DNA of 64,000 nucleotides, from NCBI GenBank assembly GCA_958295905.1, contig OY282382.1, positions 620,001-684,000 of the forward strand. The letters run 5' to 3'. The first letter of the stretch is position 1. Each line of letters begins with the position of its first letter. Positions 6,552 through 61,918 of this stretch are shown one piece after another. The notes beneath the pieces were generated by a model that was not told where the DNA came from, made no database searches, and saw only the letters and a program-made list of their open reading frames with translations. Position numbers and translations under genes: made by a program. The DNA comes from an uncultured Vicinamibacterales bacterium (GTDB taxonomy: Bacteria; Acidobacteriota; Vicinamibacteria; Vicinamibacterales; UBA8438).

Positions 6552-7484
6552 ATGACCGGGAAGCGCGCTAACACGGACCGTCGTCTACGAATCGGGCCGG
6601 CCCGTCGTTGGCCGGGGGCCGGCCCCGCAGAAGTTTCGCATCAGCGAGACTTCCAACCCGACCGCAGGGTCGCGATCGAGCGCTCCCGCCGTCTCGCCCG
6701 GAGCGCCGGCGTCCTGACCAGCCTGCTCCTGGTCGGGTGCGGGCCGAGTCCGAACTTCGAGAGCGCCGGGATCGGCCGAACCGGCGTCACCGGAGCGGGG
6801 GAGGTGTCGATCCCGGTGCCGCCGGGGGAGAACGGGAGTGGGGATCTCCTCGTGGCGATCCTCGGCGCCCCGGGGAATCCGAATACCTCCGGGCCCGAGG
6901 GATGGACCTCGGTACCCGGCTTCGGTGGCTTCAACGGCGCCTTGTGTCAGTCGGATGGACAGGGGACCGCGTGTCAACTGACCGTCTTCTACAAAATCGC
7001 CGACGGATCGGAATCCACCGCCTCCTTCTCGTGGGGCGGCAGGCGGCAGGCGGCCGCTGCCGTGGTGCGGTTCTCGAACGTCGATGTGAACGAGCCGATC
7101 GGCGCGGTGGGCCAGCAGCGCGGGTCGTCGGATACGCCGCGGGCGCCGACGATCGACACCACCCGGGACGGGTCCCGCGCACTGCGGATCGCCGTCGGCG
7201 AGCTGGACGAAGCGGGCCGGTTTCTCCGCGGGGCGGTGGCGCTGGCTGACGAACCTCCCTCGTCACGGCTGAGCATCGTCTCGTTTCCCCCCGCCGCAGA
7301 CGATCCAACGAACGGCTGTGGCCCGCCGCTGGCCTCGTGCGACCAGATCGAGCGCGCCGTAGGGCTGGCGGTGTCGGACACCCGTCACGCGTCGACCGGT
7401 CCCTCCGGTCCCGTCTCGTGGGAGCTCGGCGGCGGCGACCAGTGGCTCACCGCCACGATAGAGATCAAGCGGCCGGCCGGGTAG
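6552..7484 (+). CDS. probable lipoprotein with an extended N-terminus
   Basis: ATG 6552 follows a very good ribosome site (gggagggggcaac), giving 310 residues. A lipobox LLLVGC with Cys63 ends a hydrophobic run, but lipoprotein signals normally sit within the first 20-30 residues. Here about 45 polar residues come first, and part of them (codons 26-41) is encoded by a copy of repeat B. No ATG, GTG or TTG lies between the repeat and the signal. The mature part has the pattern GDLLVAIL...GWTSVP...FYKIADGSE found in tandem-domain surface proteins of bacteria; the family is not named by me. Function unknown. Either the repeat entered the 5' end, or a rare start codon is used downstream. Confidence 0.6.
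   Translation: MTGKRANTDRRLRIGPARRWPGAGPAEVSHQRDFQPDRRVAIERSRRLARSAGVLTSLLLVGCGPSPNFESAGIGRTGVTGAGEVSIPVPPGENGSGDLLVAILGAPGNPNTSGPEGWTSVPGFGGFNGALCQSDGQGTACQLTVFYKIADGSESTASFSWGGRRQAAAAVVRFSNVDVNEPIGAVGQQRGSSDTPRAPTIDTTRDGSRALRIAVGELDEAGRFLRGAVALADEPPSSRLSIVSFPPAADDPTNGCGPPLASCDQIERAVGLAVSDTRHASTGPSGPVSWELGGGDQWLTATIEIKRPAG
6627..6674 (+). repeat. palindromic repeat B, copy B1
   Basis: The sequence gcagaagtttcgcatcagcg leads a first hairpin (GAAGTTTCGC / GCGAGACTTC) followed by a second (CGACC-GCAG-GGTCG). It belongs to the same family as 23384-23432 and 29679-29892 and here lies inside the frame of the lipoprotein gene. Confidence 0.85.
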
Positions 7485-22089: not shown

Positions 22090-22141
22090 GACGTCGCTCT
22101 CTCTGTCTTCCTGTCTTCGGCGTGCCTGAGACGATACCATC

Positions 22142-22489
22142 GCACCGGCCGCGGGGGGCCTCGGCCCCGGAACCCGCCGGCGCCGGCGCCGGCAAGACCG
22201 CGGGCGTCGGCGCGGGCGTCGCACCGGCCGCGGGGGGGCCTCGGTCCCGAACCCGCCGGCGCCGCGGGGTGGCGGGGGCGGGCCGGGAGGCGGGCGGCGG
22301 TCCTGGCCACCCACGGCGGGCGGCACAGGAACGGGTGTATAAACCGCGGGCGTCGGTGCGGGCGTCGCACCGGCCGCGGGGGGGCCTCGGTCCCGAACCC
22401 GCCGGCGCCGCGGGGTGGCGGGGCGGACCGGGAGGCGGGCGGCGGTCCTGGCCACCCGTGGCGGGCGGCGCAGGAACAGGTGTATAACA
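22142..22489. repeat. tandem repeat of about 146 bp (2.4 copies)
   Basis: Full units lie at 22198-22343 and 22344-22489, preceded by a partial one at 22142-22197. Each unit ends in an AT-rich gtgtataa. The units differ at few positions, so the duplication is fairly recent. No coding function is seen. Confidence 0.85.
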
Positions 22490-22805: not shown

Positions 22806-23372
22806 ATGAGCGCACAGTCACGGGCCGCCGGCAGGTCATCGAAGTCCGTCCGGCAGATCGTCCTCGGCGCCGCGGCCGCGCTGGGGTTGGTAGTGGTGGC
22901 CGGGGGCGTCGCCTGGACCATGAGCTGTCCCTGCGAAGGCACCCCGGGCTTCGTGCTGCTGGGCGACGCCCACGACGAGCCGGTCGACGACTGGAGCTTC
23001 GCGAACGACGTCTCGCTGTGCCAGATCCAGATCGGCATCTGGATGAGGCCGCATTCGGTGAACGTCAACTGCATGGCGACGCCGGAGGGCGAGCTCTTCA
23101 TCAGTTGCTCGGTCGGCGCGAACAAGTACTGGTGTCCACGGGTGGGCCAGGACCACTCGGGACGCCTCCGGCTCGACGGCGTCGTCTACCCCGTCGTCCT
23201 CAACCGCGAGATGGACCAAGCCACGCTCGATCGGGTCTGGGCGGCACGGATCCGGAAGCTCCAGAAGCCGGCCGTTCAGGCGCGGCAGCCGGGGGGCGGA
23301 GGCGAGCCGCCGCCGCTCGATACGCCGCGGCCGGAAAGCTGGTGGACGTTCCGCGTGGAGTCGCGCGGCTAG
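22806..23372 (+). CDS. membrane-anchored split-barrel-like protein of unknown function
   Basis: ATG 22806 follows GGAGGAGG. The 188-residue product has one N-terminal membrane span (VLGAAAALGLVVVAGGVAW) and then a soluble domain with PVDDWSFANDVSLCQIQ, PHSVNVNCMA, KYWCPRVG and RLRLDGVVYPV. The order of segments resembles nitroreductase/deazaflavin-dependent split barrels that bind flavin-type cofactors. The protein at 29132 is a paralogue. Several cysteines (SCPC, SCS, YWC) could bind metal or form disulfides. The stop codon is part of the head of a palindromic repeat. Function unknown. Confidence 0.7.
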   Translation: MSAQSRAAGRSSKSVRQIVLGAAAALGLVVVAGGVAWTMSCPCEGTPGFVLLGDAHDEPVDDWSFANDVSLCQIQIGIWMRPHSVNVNCMATPEGELFISCSVGANKYWCPRVGQDHSGRLRLDGVVYPVVLNREMDQATLDRVWAARIRKLQKPAVQARQPGGGGEPPPLDTPRPESWWTFRVESRG

Positions 23373-23432
23373 GAGTCTGCGCCGTAGAAGTTTCGCGCGA
23401 GCGGAGCTTCCAACGCGACCGCAAGGTCGCGC
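23367..23432 (+). repeat. palindromic repeat: A-type head joined to B body (B2)
   Basis: It begins ggctaggagtctgcgccgta, as in family A, and passes into the B sequence gaagtttcgcgcgagcgg. Two hairpins are possible: GAAGTTTCGC/GCGGAGCTTC (two G-U pairs as RNA) and GCGACC-GCAA-GGTCGC. It lies between the stop codon of one gene and the ribosome site of the next. Confidence 0.85.
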
Positions 23433-23497
23433 CGGGCCGCGTCGCAGCCGCTTCGGTCGCGACTGCGTCCACCCGCGAACGGCCGGAGGAGAGCGAC

Positions 23498-24907
23498 ATG
23501 CTCGATAAATCTTGCGGGACCCGGCGTCGTGCCATCCTCTTGGTGGTGCTCGTGCTGTTGACGGGCATCGCGCGCGGTGCAGACGGCCAGCCGCCGGATC
23601 CCGCCGCCTCGACCCCGGCCGTCCAGTTGTTCACCGGCGCGCGCGTCATCGTGGGGGACGGCCGCGTCATCGACGACGCCGCGTTCCTCGTGCGCGGCAA
23701 TCTGATCGTGCGGGTCGGGAGCGCCGGCGAGGTGACGGCGCCGCCGCGGGCGGGCGTCGTCGACCTGACCGGGCGCACGGTAATGCCGGCGCTTGTCAAC
23801 ACCCATGCCCATCTCGGCTGGGAGCGGTACACGACCTGGGGTTCCGAGAACTTCACCCGCGACAACCTCGTCGACCACCTCCACCGCCACGCCTACTACG
23901 GCGTCTCCACGATCATCTCCACCGGCAGCGACCTCGAGGAGATCGCCCTCGAGGTCCGGCAGGCGCAACGGGTGGGCGAAGTCGGAGGTGCCCGCTACCT
24001 GGTGTCGCCCGGTCTCGGGACGCCCGGCGGCGGACCGAACCCCCGGTTCACGAACGACGCCGGATGGTGGGGACTTCACGGGGTGACGACCCCCGCCGAG
24101 GCGCGCGAGGTCGTGCGGGCCGAGGCCGCGCGCGGCATCCGGATCCTGAAGATCTGGGTGGATGCGCGTGACGAGCGGCGGGGCGCGCGGGTGAAGCTCC
24201 ATCCGGACATCTATGCGGCCGCCCTCGACGAGGCCCAGGTGCAAGACATCCGGGTGATCACGCACGCGACCACGCTCGAGGACCACAAGCGGTTGCTCGC
24301 GGCCGGCACCCGGCGCTTCATCCATATGCCTTACGACACGGCCGTCGACGACGAGTACCTCGCGCTCGTCGCGGCGCGCAACGCGTTCATCGTGCCGACC
24401 CTCGGCATGGTCACGCGGGGCGAGCCGTTCCGGCGGCCGGTGTACGAGGACCCCTTCTTCCAGGAGCAGGTCCCGGAGGCGGTCGTCGCGATGCTGCGGG
24501 ACGCCGGCGGCGGCGACTCCGGCGCCGCCGGCCCTCGAACCGCGGCGGCCGAAGCGCGGGCCCGGGTAATCCGGGACAACTTCATGCGGCTGCGCGACCG
24601 CGTCATCCTCGGTACCGACGCCGGCGCAGTGGGCGACTTCTTCGGCTACGCCGATCATCTGGAGCTGGAGCTCTTCGTGCGGCTGGGAATGACGCCGGCG
24701 GAGGCGATAGTGGCCGCCACGACCCGGGCGGCGCGGGCGTTCGGGCTGACCGAGACCGGGGCCATCGAGGCCGGACGGAGCGCCGACTTCCTGGTGCTCG
24801 ACGCCAACCCCCTCGACGACATCCTGCATACGCGGCAGATCGCCGCCGTGTATCTCCGAGGCGTCGAGGTCGACCGCGATGCCTTGCGCGCGCGTTGGAC
24901 GGACTGA
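23498..24907 (+). CDS. amidohydrolase family protein, secreted
   Basis: ATG 23498 lies seven bases after GGAGGAG; the product has 469 residues with a signal peptide (ILLVVLVLLTGIARGADG). Motifs are NTHAHLG, ILKIWVD (lysine), ITHATT, HMPYD and the terminal aspartate LGTDAGA, then the sandwich strand SADFLVLDANPL. The second histidine region reads FIHMPYD, unlike the EH found in its two relatives, which hints at a different metal arrangement. A periplasmic amide or ester hydrolase is likely. Repeat B2 occupies the 5' leader region. Confidence 0.83.
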   Translation: MLDKSCGTRRRAILLVVLVLLTGIARGADGQPPDPAASTPAVQLFTGARVIVGDGRVIDDAAFLVRGNLIVRVGSAGEVTAPPRAGVVDLTGRTVMPALVNTHAHLGWERYTTWGSENFTRDNLVDHLHRHAYYGVSTIISTGSDLEEIALEVRQAQRVGEVGGARYLVSPGLGTPGGGPNPRFTNDAGWWGLHGVTTPAEAREVVRAEAARGIRILKIWVDARDERRGARVKLHPDIYAAALDEAQVQDIRVITHATTLEDHKRLLAAGTRRFIHMPYDTAVDDEYLALVAARNAFIVPTLGMVTRGEPFRRPVYEDPFFQEQVPEAVVAMLRDAGGGDSGAAGPRTAAAEARARVIRDNFMRLRDRVILGTDAGAVGDFFGYADHLELELFVRLGMTPAEAIVAATTRAARAFGLTETGAIEAGRSADFLVLDANPLDDILHTRQIAAVYLRGVEVDRDALRARWTD

Positions 24908-28585: not shown

Positions 28586-28640
28586 CCCCGCAGGTTGGCG
28601 GCGGCTCGTCCGGGCCTCACCGCGCGTCCGGCGAAGGCCA

Positions 28641-28810
28641 AGGCGTCTGCGCCGTAGAACGGCGCGGATTCCTGGAGGGTGGGTTGGGGCGGCAATCGGA
28701 GCCGCAGGCGACGATTTCCGGGCCAGGCGTCTGCGCCGTAGAACGGCGCGGACTCCTGGAGGGTTGGTTGGGCGGTGAGCGGAGCCGCAGGCGACGCTCT
28801 CCGGGCTAGG
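28641..28810 (+). repeat. palindromic repeat A, two tandem copies (A1, A2)
   Basis: Copies at 28641-28724 and 28725-28810 share gtctgcgccgtagaacggcg, continuing cggattcctgg or cggactcctgg, then ggttgg and gcaggcgacg. GTCTGCGCCG-TAGAA-CGGCGCGGAT/C forms a near-perfect hairpin. Other copies are at 31445, 32829 and 61832, all in the same orientation. Confidence 0.9.
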
Positions 28811-29131
28811 CGGACGGCCTCCGCCTCGGCCGAGCAGATCGTCGTCATGACCCCCACCGACGGGTATTCCAGGCGGCGACAACGCGGACGGGGATGGCGG
28901 GCGCGCTCGATCTGGCGCGCTTCTTCGCCGCGCGGCCCCGGCGGGATCGGCCGCGCACCATCAAGTTTCATCACGGCGGTCCCCCTCCGGTCCGATCACG
29001 CCGCCGGCCGCCGTTGACGAAACGTCACGCCTGTCGGCGTATGATCTGGCAGGTCGAGGCACCCGGATCTTCGAGTCTGTCCGGGGGGCCCGGCGGTTGC
29101 CTGGTCCGTATCCGACCCTGACGAGGGCTGC
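28811..29131. other. intergenic region
   Basis: About 320 bases with no gene I can support; frames on both strands read as low-complexity arginine- and proline-rich sequence. The end provides a weak ribosome site (gagggctgc) for the gene at 29132. Confidence 0.45.
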
Positions 29132-29626
29132 ATGTCGAAGAAGACGACGCTGTATTTCGTTCTCGGTGTGGTGGTCGGCTTGGCGGCGGCGGCATACGCC
29201 GCCACGGCGCCCTACGAGCGATTCCCCGGCGTGGTGATAGGCGGCGAACTGACGCCGCCGCCCGCGGACTGGAACACCGTCAACGACCACGGCGTGGTGT
29301 TCCTCAAGCTCGCCGGGTTCCCGCCGTTCGTCATCCGCATCGTGTACTCGACCGACGACGGCGGGATCATCACGGCCACCCGGCCCGACGGCGGCTACTG
29401 GGCCGGGCGGGTGCGGGGCGGGCGGCGGGACGGGTGGATCCGTCTCGGCGACGAGACCTATGCGCTCACCGCGACCGAGATCGCCGGCGACGAGCGGATC
29501 CCCTATCTCGAGAACTACGGCGCGAAGAACGGCATGCGCATGGGGTACGACTTCGACGGCGAGATCGTCCCCAGCGTCAACGAGCCGCTCCACACGTGGG
29601 AAGTGTTCTACTGGACGCCCAGGTAG
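29132..29626 (+). CDS. membrane-anchored split-barrel-like protein (paralogue of 22806)
   Basis: The 164-residue protein begins with one membrane span (LYFVLGVVVGLAAAAYAA). Its soluble part parallels the protein at 22806-23372: PGVVIGGELTPPPADWNTVND, a beta segment VIRIVYSTDDGGIITAT, GGYWAGRVRG, then WIRLGDETYALTATEI. The cysteines of the paralogue are absent here. A split-barrel fold with a cofactor-binding role is plausible but unproven. Three repeat B units follow the stop codon. Confidence 0.7.
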   Translation: MSKKTTLYFVLGVVVGLAAAAYAATAPYERFPGVVIGGELTPPPADWNTVNDHGVVFLKLAGFPPFVIRIVYSTDDGGIITATRPDGGYWAGRVRGGRRDGWIRLGDETYALTATEIAGDERIPYLENYGAKNGMRMGYDFDGEIVPSVNEPLHTWEVFYWTPR

Positions 29627-29678: not shown

Positions 29679-29892
29679 GCAGAAAAGTTCGCGCAAAGCA
29701 AAACTTCCCACGCGCCCCGTCAGGGGCGCAACGCCGCTGCGCTCCGCGTCGGCATCCTGGAACCCCGCCGGCCCGGCTGGGGCCTCGCAACGCAGAAGTT
29801 TCGCGCGGGCGAAACCGCCAACACGCCCCGTCAACAGGATCCCCCGCGCAGAAGTTTCGCGCCAGCGAAACTTCCAACGCGCCCCGTCAGGG
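29679..29892 (+). repeat. palindromic repeat B, copies B3, B4 and B5
   Basis: B3 is at 29679-29730, B4 at 29791-29834 and B5 at 29848-29892. B5 gives the clearest folding: GAAGTTTCGC-GCCA-GCGAAACTTC and then GCGCCCC-GTCA-GGGGCGC. B3 keeps the second stem; B4 has lost it. B5 overlaps the stop codon of the convergent minus-strand gene. Confidence 0.9.
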
Positions 29893-30948
29893 GCGCGCCG
29901 CCGCCTCCTGGAGCTCGATGTTGCGATAGACCTCCTGGATGTGCCGGATGTCGTGGTTGCCCTCGTGGCAGGCGTACTCGTACATCGGCCCCTCGGTGGA
30001 CATCAACGGAATCTCGGCGCTCCACGGCCGGTCCCAGGTGGCCGGGTCCTCCACCGTGAACGTGAAGTGGATCTGGTCGTCGGCCACCCGGGTGAACCGC
30101 TCCACCACCTTGAGGCCGCGGCTCGAGCCCTGCCACGCGGACTTGTCGTTGAAGTTGGAGGTCTCGACGACGAGGGTGTCGCCCTCCCAGCGCCCGCGCG
30201 AGTCGCCCGGCCAGAGACGGATGTCCTCCGGAATGGGCGGCCGCCCGTCGACCGGGATGATGCGCGGCGGGTTGTTGTTCTGCTCGGTGAAGATGACGAC
30301 GTGCGTCGGCGTCTGGAAGATCTGGTGGATGTCGTTGTAGGACGGCGGCTGCAGCGGCGGCCCGTTGTAGCCGTAGTAGATGCAGCGCTCGCTGAGGGGG
30401 CGAAGCTCGTAGCCGTCGAAGGGCCCCCGGTCGCCGCGCGCCGCGCGCCGCGCCGCCGCCCGCGCCCGGGCTTCCTCGGTGCGCGGGGGAATCCGGCCGT
30501 TCGGCGGGTCGACGATCAGCGACGTGCGCCGGGTCGACAACCCCTTCGGCACCCGGGTGGCGAGCCAGATGGCATTGTCGTAGTGGACGTAGGACTCGTC
30601 GCGGTGGGTCTGGTCGAGTACCCGCTCGCGCTCCTCGGGATCGGCGATCTCGATGACGAAGCGGGCCAGCGGGTCGGCCCCGTCGACCGTCAACTGCGAC
30701 TGGAGCTGCGCGAACTCTTCCTCGGTGTAGAAGGCCTTGTCGCCCAGATATTCCGGGCGCTCCATCGGCGTGAAGGTCTGGGTGGTCCAGTAGCCCTGCA
30801 GGTCGGGCTGGCCGTCCGCCAGACGAGGCACCTCCCAGTCCGCATCCGCGTCCGGGGCGCTCTGCGACTGGCTCTGGGCGAAGGCCGGCCCCGACGCGAG
30901 CAGGGCGACCGCGAGCACTGTGGCGACCGTTCGGAGACGATAGTCCAT
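29887..30948 (-). CDS. secreted protein of the GDTLVVET family
   Basis: ATG 30946-30948 (minus) follows aggaaggg. The 353-residue protein has a signal peptide ending AFAQS. Conserved stretches are PDLQGYWTTQTFTPMERP, RRTSLIVDPPNGRIPP, SRGRWEGDTLVVETSNFND, FTRVADDQIHFTFTVEDPAT and a last motif YEYACHEGNHDI. The paralogue at 49273-50301 shares all of these. The family is abundant in Acidobacteriota and I know no experimentally proven role; the beta-rich sequence suggests a lipocalin- or jelly-roll-like binding protein. The stop codon falls inside repeat B5. Confidence 0.75.
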   Translation of the reverse strand: MDYRLRTVATVLAVALLASGPAFAQSQSQSAPDADADWEVPRLADGQPDLQGYWTTQTFTPMERPEYLGDKAFYTEEEFAQLQSQLTVDGADPLARFVIEIADPEERERVLDQTHRDESYVHYDNAIWLATRVPKGLSTRRTSLIVDPPNGRIPPRTEEARARAAARRAARGDRGPFDGYELRPLSERCIYYGYNGPPLQPPSYNDIHQIFQTPTHVVIFTEQNNNPPRIIPVDGRPPIPEDIRLWPGDSRGRWEGDTLVVETSNFNDKSAWQGSSRGLKVVERFTRVADDQIHFTFTVEDPATWDRPWSAEIPLMSTEGPMYEYACHEGNHDIRHIQEVYRNIELQEAAARP

Positions 30949-31034
30949 CTGAAACCCTTCCTGGAAAGGCACCGTCGTTTATCGGGTACGCGCCCATGAT
31001 CGCTCAGGTCCCCGCCGTGCGCAAGCCCCCGGCC

Positions 31035-31218: not shown

Positions 31219-31444
31219 CCGCGGTCCCTCGGGATGGGCCCCGCGTTGCGGCGAGCCGTCCGGGAGCCCAACGGGCGGCAGGGCGCCGGCGGGCTGACGG
31301 ACGCCCGTGCGAACAAGGCGTGACGCGAAAGCCTGTGTTGGGGGCCGCAACTTGCCGGAGCAAGAACCCCGCTTGGGCGAACCGCGCAGTCCGGCCGGAT
31401 GCAGGCGCGGTCGAATGCAGCGGCGGAGCCTTCCGCCGGGGCGC

Positions 31445-31529
31445 CAGGCGTCTGCGCCATAGAACGGCGCGGACTCCTGGAGGTTGGTTGGACGGCAATC
31501 GGAGCCGCCGTCGACGATTTCCGGGCTAA
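31445..31529 (+). repeat. palindromic repeat A, copy A3
   Basis: It reads aggcgtctgcgccatagaac, continuing ggcgcggactcctgg, and ends 33 bases before the start codon of the hydrolase gene at 31563. Confidence 0.88.
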
Positions 31530-32785: not shown

Positions 32786-32828
32786 GTCTTGGCGAACGGC
32801 GGTCGGTCAGCCCCCAGGCTGCGCCGGC

Positions 32829-32915
32829 CAGGAGTCTGCGCCGTAGAACGGCGCGGACTCCTGGCGGGTTGGTTGGGCGGCCATCGGAGCCGTAGGCGAC
32901 GATCTCCGGGCCAGG
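32829..32915 (+). repeat. palindromic repeat A, copy A4
   Basis: It starts ccaggagtctgcgccgtaga and has the full hairpin GAGTCTGCGCCG-TAGAA-CGGCGCGGACTC. It lies 92 bases upstream of brxF and may mark the left edge of the island. Confidence 0.9.
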
Positions 32916-33006
32916 CTGCGCCGGGATGAGGGCGGAATCGTCAACCACGGCAACGACTTCCAGCCCAGCCGCATAGATAGAGCCGCCCAAGCCCGGCTTG
33001 AGAGCC

Positions 33007-61831: not shown

Positions 61832-61918
61832 GGGAGTCTGCGCCGTAGGTAGAACGGCGCGGACTCCAGGCAGGGTTGGTTGGGGCGGCGACGCAGGCGA
61901 CGATTTGCGGGCCGGGGC
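61832..61918 (+). repeat. palindromic repeat A, copy A5
   Basis: It reads gggagtctgcgccgtaggta with the hairpin partner acggcgcggactcc, and ends 42 bases before the dsbD start. The loop is four bases longer (TAGGTAGAA) than in other copies. Confidence 0.87.

Follow-up and report, generated by a model that had tools for sequence, protein, structure and literature searches.

It has long been asked whether REP-like repeats serve as useful RNA at the ends of genes or are selfish DNA, and the question is raised here by family B, a repeat with five sites in a 64,000-nucleotide stretch of genome (the window). The initial annotation had reported that these copies form two hairpins in which both sides of the second stem changed together, and had read this as selection on structure, maybe as RNA. 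We examined the copies in the window, in the rest of this genome (G000), in two congeners (G001 and G002) and in further relatives. Genome context was read from 79 stretches of 20 kb centred on copies, with genes called by a simple purpose-written codon model and no standard gene finder.

Family B copies in the window

All five sites (B1-B5) are present in the sequence. B1, B2 and B5 form both hairpins and match the motif with three or fewer mismatches (0.00 matches expected from the shuffled window); the statement that all five copies do so was too generous, because stem 1 is broken in B3 and B4 lacks both stems. The copies and the genes around the B3-B5 cluster are as follows.

6620-6676, + strand: B1; stem 1 with one U.G pair; stem 2 CGACC-GCAG-GGTCG; fold z -4.2
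23377-23433, + strand: B2; stem 1 with two U.G pairs; stem 2 GCGACC-GCAA-GGTCGC; fold z -3.0; R1 77.4 bits
29132-29626, + strand: gene with its 3' end towards the B3-B5 cluster; ORF of 164 aa, codon-model call
29679-29733, + strand: B3, decayed copy; stem 2 intact (GCGCCCC/GGGGCGC), stem 1 broken; fold z -2.1
29791-29838, + strand: B4, decayed copy; neither stem stable; fold z -0.2
29841-29899, + strand: B5, best copy; fold z -5.4; R1 66.3 bits
29851-29860 and 29865-29874: arms of B5 stem 1 (GAAGTTTCGC / GCGAAACTTC), loop GCCA
29878-29885 and 29890-29897: arms of B5 stem 2 (CGCGCCCC / GGGGCGCG), loop GTCA
29887-30972, - strand: gene convergent with that at 29132-29626; ORF of 361 aa, codon-model call

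The called stop of the convergent gene overlaps the second half of B5. B1 and B2 are each flanked by two + strand genes, and B2 starts 5 nt past the stop codon of the gene upstream (gene end 23372). The G-U pairs described in stem 1 of B1 and B2 were confirmed and, because both copies lie between + strand genes, the mismatches are G.U in the likely transcript. The variants of stem 2 also proved to be as described (GCGCCCC/GGGGCGC in B3 and B5, GCGACC/GGTCGC in B2, CGACC/GGTCG in B1); the switch between types combines a substitution with a 1-bp change in length. The initial observation was thus mostly right.

Anatomy, range and covariation

The family B consensus reads TTGCGCCGYAG-NAGTTTCGC-GYCA-GCGAAACTN-CCAA-CGCGACC-GCAA-GGTCGCGC, with a first hairpin of about 24 nt and a second one unlike it in sequence. 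A covariance model recovers about 125 copies in the genome at E<=0.01; a DNA query gives 45 matches and a pattern search 84 (palindromes counted on both strands; reversed control 0). Among the relatives searched, the repeat is present in eleven genomes of the bacterium's own taxonomic family, spread over four genera; 32 genomes from elsewhere in the order, all of other families, gave no copy. An exact-pattern scan of public genomes matched solely gammaproteobacterial MAGs, mostly labelled Pseudomonadales. Family B has no Rfam match at the gathering score, and the literature searched holds no prior description of it.

Copies occur in three settings: alone (type I), in head-to-tail arrays with a spacing of about 57-66 nt, and as part of a composite about 145 nt long (type II), which is itself also repeated at about 133 nt. 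The repeat that hosts the module in these composites is found without it at 80 places, mostly with a 9-nt spacer, and with it at about 26 places, where the corresponding stretch is usually 59 nt; the 50-nt B module is thus present or absent at one exact point. This host repeat (GGAGTCTGCGCCGTAGAACGGCGCGGACTCC + GGTTGGTTGGGCGG) is a second repeat family in its own right, seen in the window at 28627-28811, 31432-31487, 32816-32916 and 61849-61916, and the genome stretches that were read contain at least 80 copies of it that lack the B module; at L077 2534-2949 it is repeated six times head to tail with an exact 83-nt period. Elsewhere in the window, positions 22140-22487 hold a tandem repeat of about 145 nt whose copies are 93-99% identical.

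Turnover is high. Arrays grow and shrink between congeners, and a shared place is recognisable in only about 16 of 106 locus groups. B5 alone has a clean one-to-one orthologue between congeners, and clean pairs of empty and filled orthologous sites are lacking, because the intergenic regions are too volatile. B3 is not recognisable at the orthologous place in G001 or G002. In place of the intergenic space that holds B2 (window 23372-23544, compared with L219), G001 has over 1 kb of different sequence with a small gene in it. As most copies are unshared between congeners, any benefit at single loci must be weak.

The initial annotation had, beforehand, staked its structural reading on covariation in a larger alignment, and such an alignment does contain significant stem pairs. 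Among 133 copies of G000, double-sided changes affect 10 of 17 stem pairs, with 80 double-sided cells against 33.9 after shuffling; the covariation score is 0.130, compared with 0.080 (sd 0.004) for the shuffled set. Copies from the two congeners agree with this (54 cells versus 18.0 shuffled). For 287 distinct copies from seven genomes, aligned by fitting to the model, we applied a tree-based null in a re-implementation of our own in R-scape style, which is not R-scape itself. Of 1540 column pairs, two reached significance, one per stem (12-33 for stem 1, 42-51 for stem 2), and the four with the highest covariation all belong to the stems. In the 105 ungapped copies taken alone, whose alignment cannot favour the structure, 42-51 again reaches significance and 12-33 comes next, with E 0.33 across all pairs. 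One-base deletions in stem 1 are, moreover, coupled between the two arms (odds ratio 7.2, p=2e-6). At the B5 locus a compensatory change can be seen in place: stem 1 reads GAAG..CTTC in G000 versus GGAG..CTCC in G001 and G002, an A-T pair against G-C, with stem 2 identical; in G002 the 3' arm is also short of one A.

Placement at gene ends and constraint on RNA or DNA

Family B is intergenic in 109 of 110 copies. Twenty-nine lie between convergent genes (15.9 expected) and 8 between divergent genes (30.7 expected), and the median distance to the facing stop codon is 83 nt compared with 178 in the null. Orientation tracks gene direction in G000 for type I copies (34:14), for type II composites (16:1) and for the host repeat without the B module (33:5), and the excess holds on both replication strands; single copies in relatives show no orientation bias (24:26 and 28:19). 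An intrinsic terminator was considered and rejected for want of a T tract, since TTTT occurs at the outer hairpin ends in just 3 of 314 copies, both strands considered.

We judge it rather probable, from these sequence patterns, that family B is a lineage-restricted REP-like element whose RNA hairpins act at mRNA 3' ends. A module of about 50-57 nt, made up of a degenerate GYAG, hairpin 1, a CAA linker and hairpin 2, would settle in the intergenic space right downstream of genes and would multiply singly, as short tandem arrays and within the longer composite repeat. Transcription of the neighbouring gene would presumably copy the module into the mRNA 3' end, where it would fold into two hairpins. 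The most likely effect would be protection of the 3' end against exonucleases, help in ending transcription, or both, as has been proposed for REPs. The narrower version, in which the element is independent of RAYT, is selected as RNA at mRNA 3' ends and is spread by another mobiliser, we put forward tentatively, at somewhat less than an even chance.

Selection on RNA can be told from constraint on DNA by sequence alone if G.U and A.C mismatches are compared on transcribed strands. We counted non-Watson-Crick stem cells in the transcript frame, that is, on the strand read by neighbouring genes. The ratio G.U:A.C is 57:25 in G000, 49:35 in G001 and G002 together, 17:6 in G005 and 17:13 in three further relatives; the excess is not significant in each relative taken alone. 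The pooled ratio is 140:79 (binomial p=4.5e-5), a value that none of 20000 by-locus permutations of orientation reached, and a stricter permutation within sub-families in G000 alone gives p=0.014. At unpaired positions, which served as the control, the ratio is 228:207 overall, with a tilt in the same direction in some relatives (83:60 and 62:47); stems and unpaired positions differ with p=0.006. Mutational strand bias was therefore rejected as the sole cause of the wobble asymmetry, with replication strand only partly separated: the bias in G000 is partly confounded with it, the stratified odds ratio for transcription being 3.35 (p=0.057). The excess of G.U over A.C in stems, compared with unpaired positions, suggests that the RNA form of family B is probably under selection.

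The strongest rival takes family B as a DNA-only palindrome, in which template switching copies one arm onto the other (quasipalindrome correction) without selection, and the repeat spreads selfishly by tandem duplication or transposition. Such a process would account for the high turnover and the arrays, and for stems that are equally intact where no gene reads through them (intactness 0.913 between divergent genes versus 0.897-0.904 elsewhere). It is also favoured by four flawless palindromes of 17-19 bp (L070 15252-15318, L074 10745-10811, L099 9981-10047 and L128 10058-10138), where the right flank has become an exact reverse complement of the left one; the L070 copy has an inverted loop as well. 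These copies look like the products of templated hairpin correction or inversion. However, the DNA-only account predicts neither an excess of G.U over A.C on transcribed strands nor orientation along transcription on both replication strands, and as a full explanation we consider it unlikely, though deserving of serious weight. Probably the RNA level and the DNA level both contribute. The initial suggestion of selection on structure, maybe as RNA, is accordingly supported in part, by the stem covariation and the G.U excess, and is qualified by hairpin correction acting on DNA as well.

Relation to REP families

The GTAG-tagged REP superfamily includes the Pseudomonas and E. coli REPs (Di Nocera et al. 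2013, PMC3733652). Family B resembles it as a short intergenic palindrome of high copy number with tandem clusters. As in that superfamily, the stem measures 9-10 bp, with GYAG at one of its ends in part of the family B copies; sub-families use alternative complementary residues in it, G.T pairs are frequent, and the sites lie near stop codons, between unidirectional and convergent genes (PMC3733652). It also shows several of the features that define a GTAG-tagged REP, namely more than 100 copies, intergenic location, a palindrome of 20-40 bp and proximity to 3' ends. Unlike GTAG REPs, it has a second hairpin within the unit, a degenerate tag whose last G is paired within the stem, arrays that run head to tail in place of inverted dimers, and no RAYT.

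REPINs consist of two inverted REPs with a RAYT. Family B is like REPINs and BIMEs in being a composite palindromic mobile unit with several hairpins, but its two hairpins are unrelated and in fixed order, and no RAYT accompanies them. With the CGTC-tagged REPs, which are mainly alphaproteobacterial, it shares a REP-like form without a dedicated transposase (PMC3733652), but its hairpin edge carries no CGTC tag. An attC-like reading, judged by eye, was set aside, since CCAAC, the conserved box, departs from the RYYYAAC core.

Mobilisation as a classical GTAG REP, in which a RAYT, an HUH Y1 transposase, would move the GYAG-tagged hairpin as single-stranded DNA, accords with the REP-like location, with the clean insertion of the module in the host repeat, free of any sign of target duplication, and with the GYAG that precedes hairpin 1 in 78% of G000 copies. 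This tag is, however, kept in just 39% and 61% of copies in two sets of relatives, whereas GTAG-tagged REPs carry theirs at one end in >90% of units in most families (PMC3733652). Y1_Tnp (PF01797) was not found in G000 or in six other carriers tested (G001, G002, G003, G010, G012 and G017), which argues against RAYT linkage. G005 is the only tested carrier with Y1_Tnp, and there the RAYT gene (L188, about 1040-1900) has on its flanks a GTAG hairpin repeat of its own (GTAGGTACCGGTCCGCCGGCCTCCAGGCCGGC) and no family B copy; this locus is a classical REPtron unrelated to family B. Membership among RAYT-associated REPs or REPINs was likewise rejected, with no RAYT flanked by family B in the carriers tested and no inverted copies of the same REP. 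We regard RAYT mobilisation as quite improbable and, given the second hairpin, the degenerate tag and the absence of RAYT, describe family B as REP-like without filing it under RAYT-associated REPs or REPINs.

Least probable of all, and barely credible, are discrete trans-acting small RNA genes. The stability of both hairpins and their covariation would suit such genes, but more than 100 divergent copies sited by gene ends, the high turnover, the missing Rfam match and the near-absence of T runs would not. Family B is a dispersed, high-turnover REP-like element and no discrete small RNA gene, and the RNA reading plausibly fits an element of mRNA 3' ends, not a stand-alone sRNA.

The existence of such a family without the usual REP transposase raises the question of its mobiliser. 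On the older question of selfish DNA or useful RNA, the comparison of G.U with A.C points to constraint at the RNA level for family B. If this is true, an excess of G.U over A.C would be a direct evolutionary signature, applicable to any REP family.
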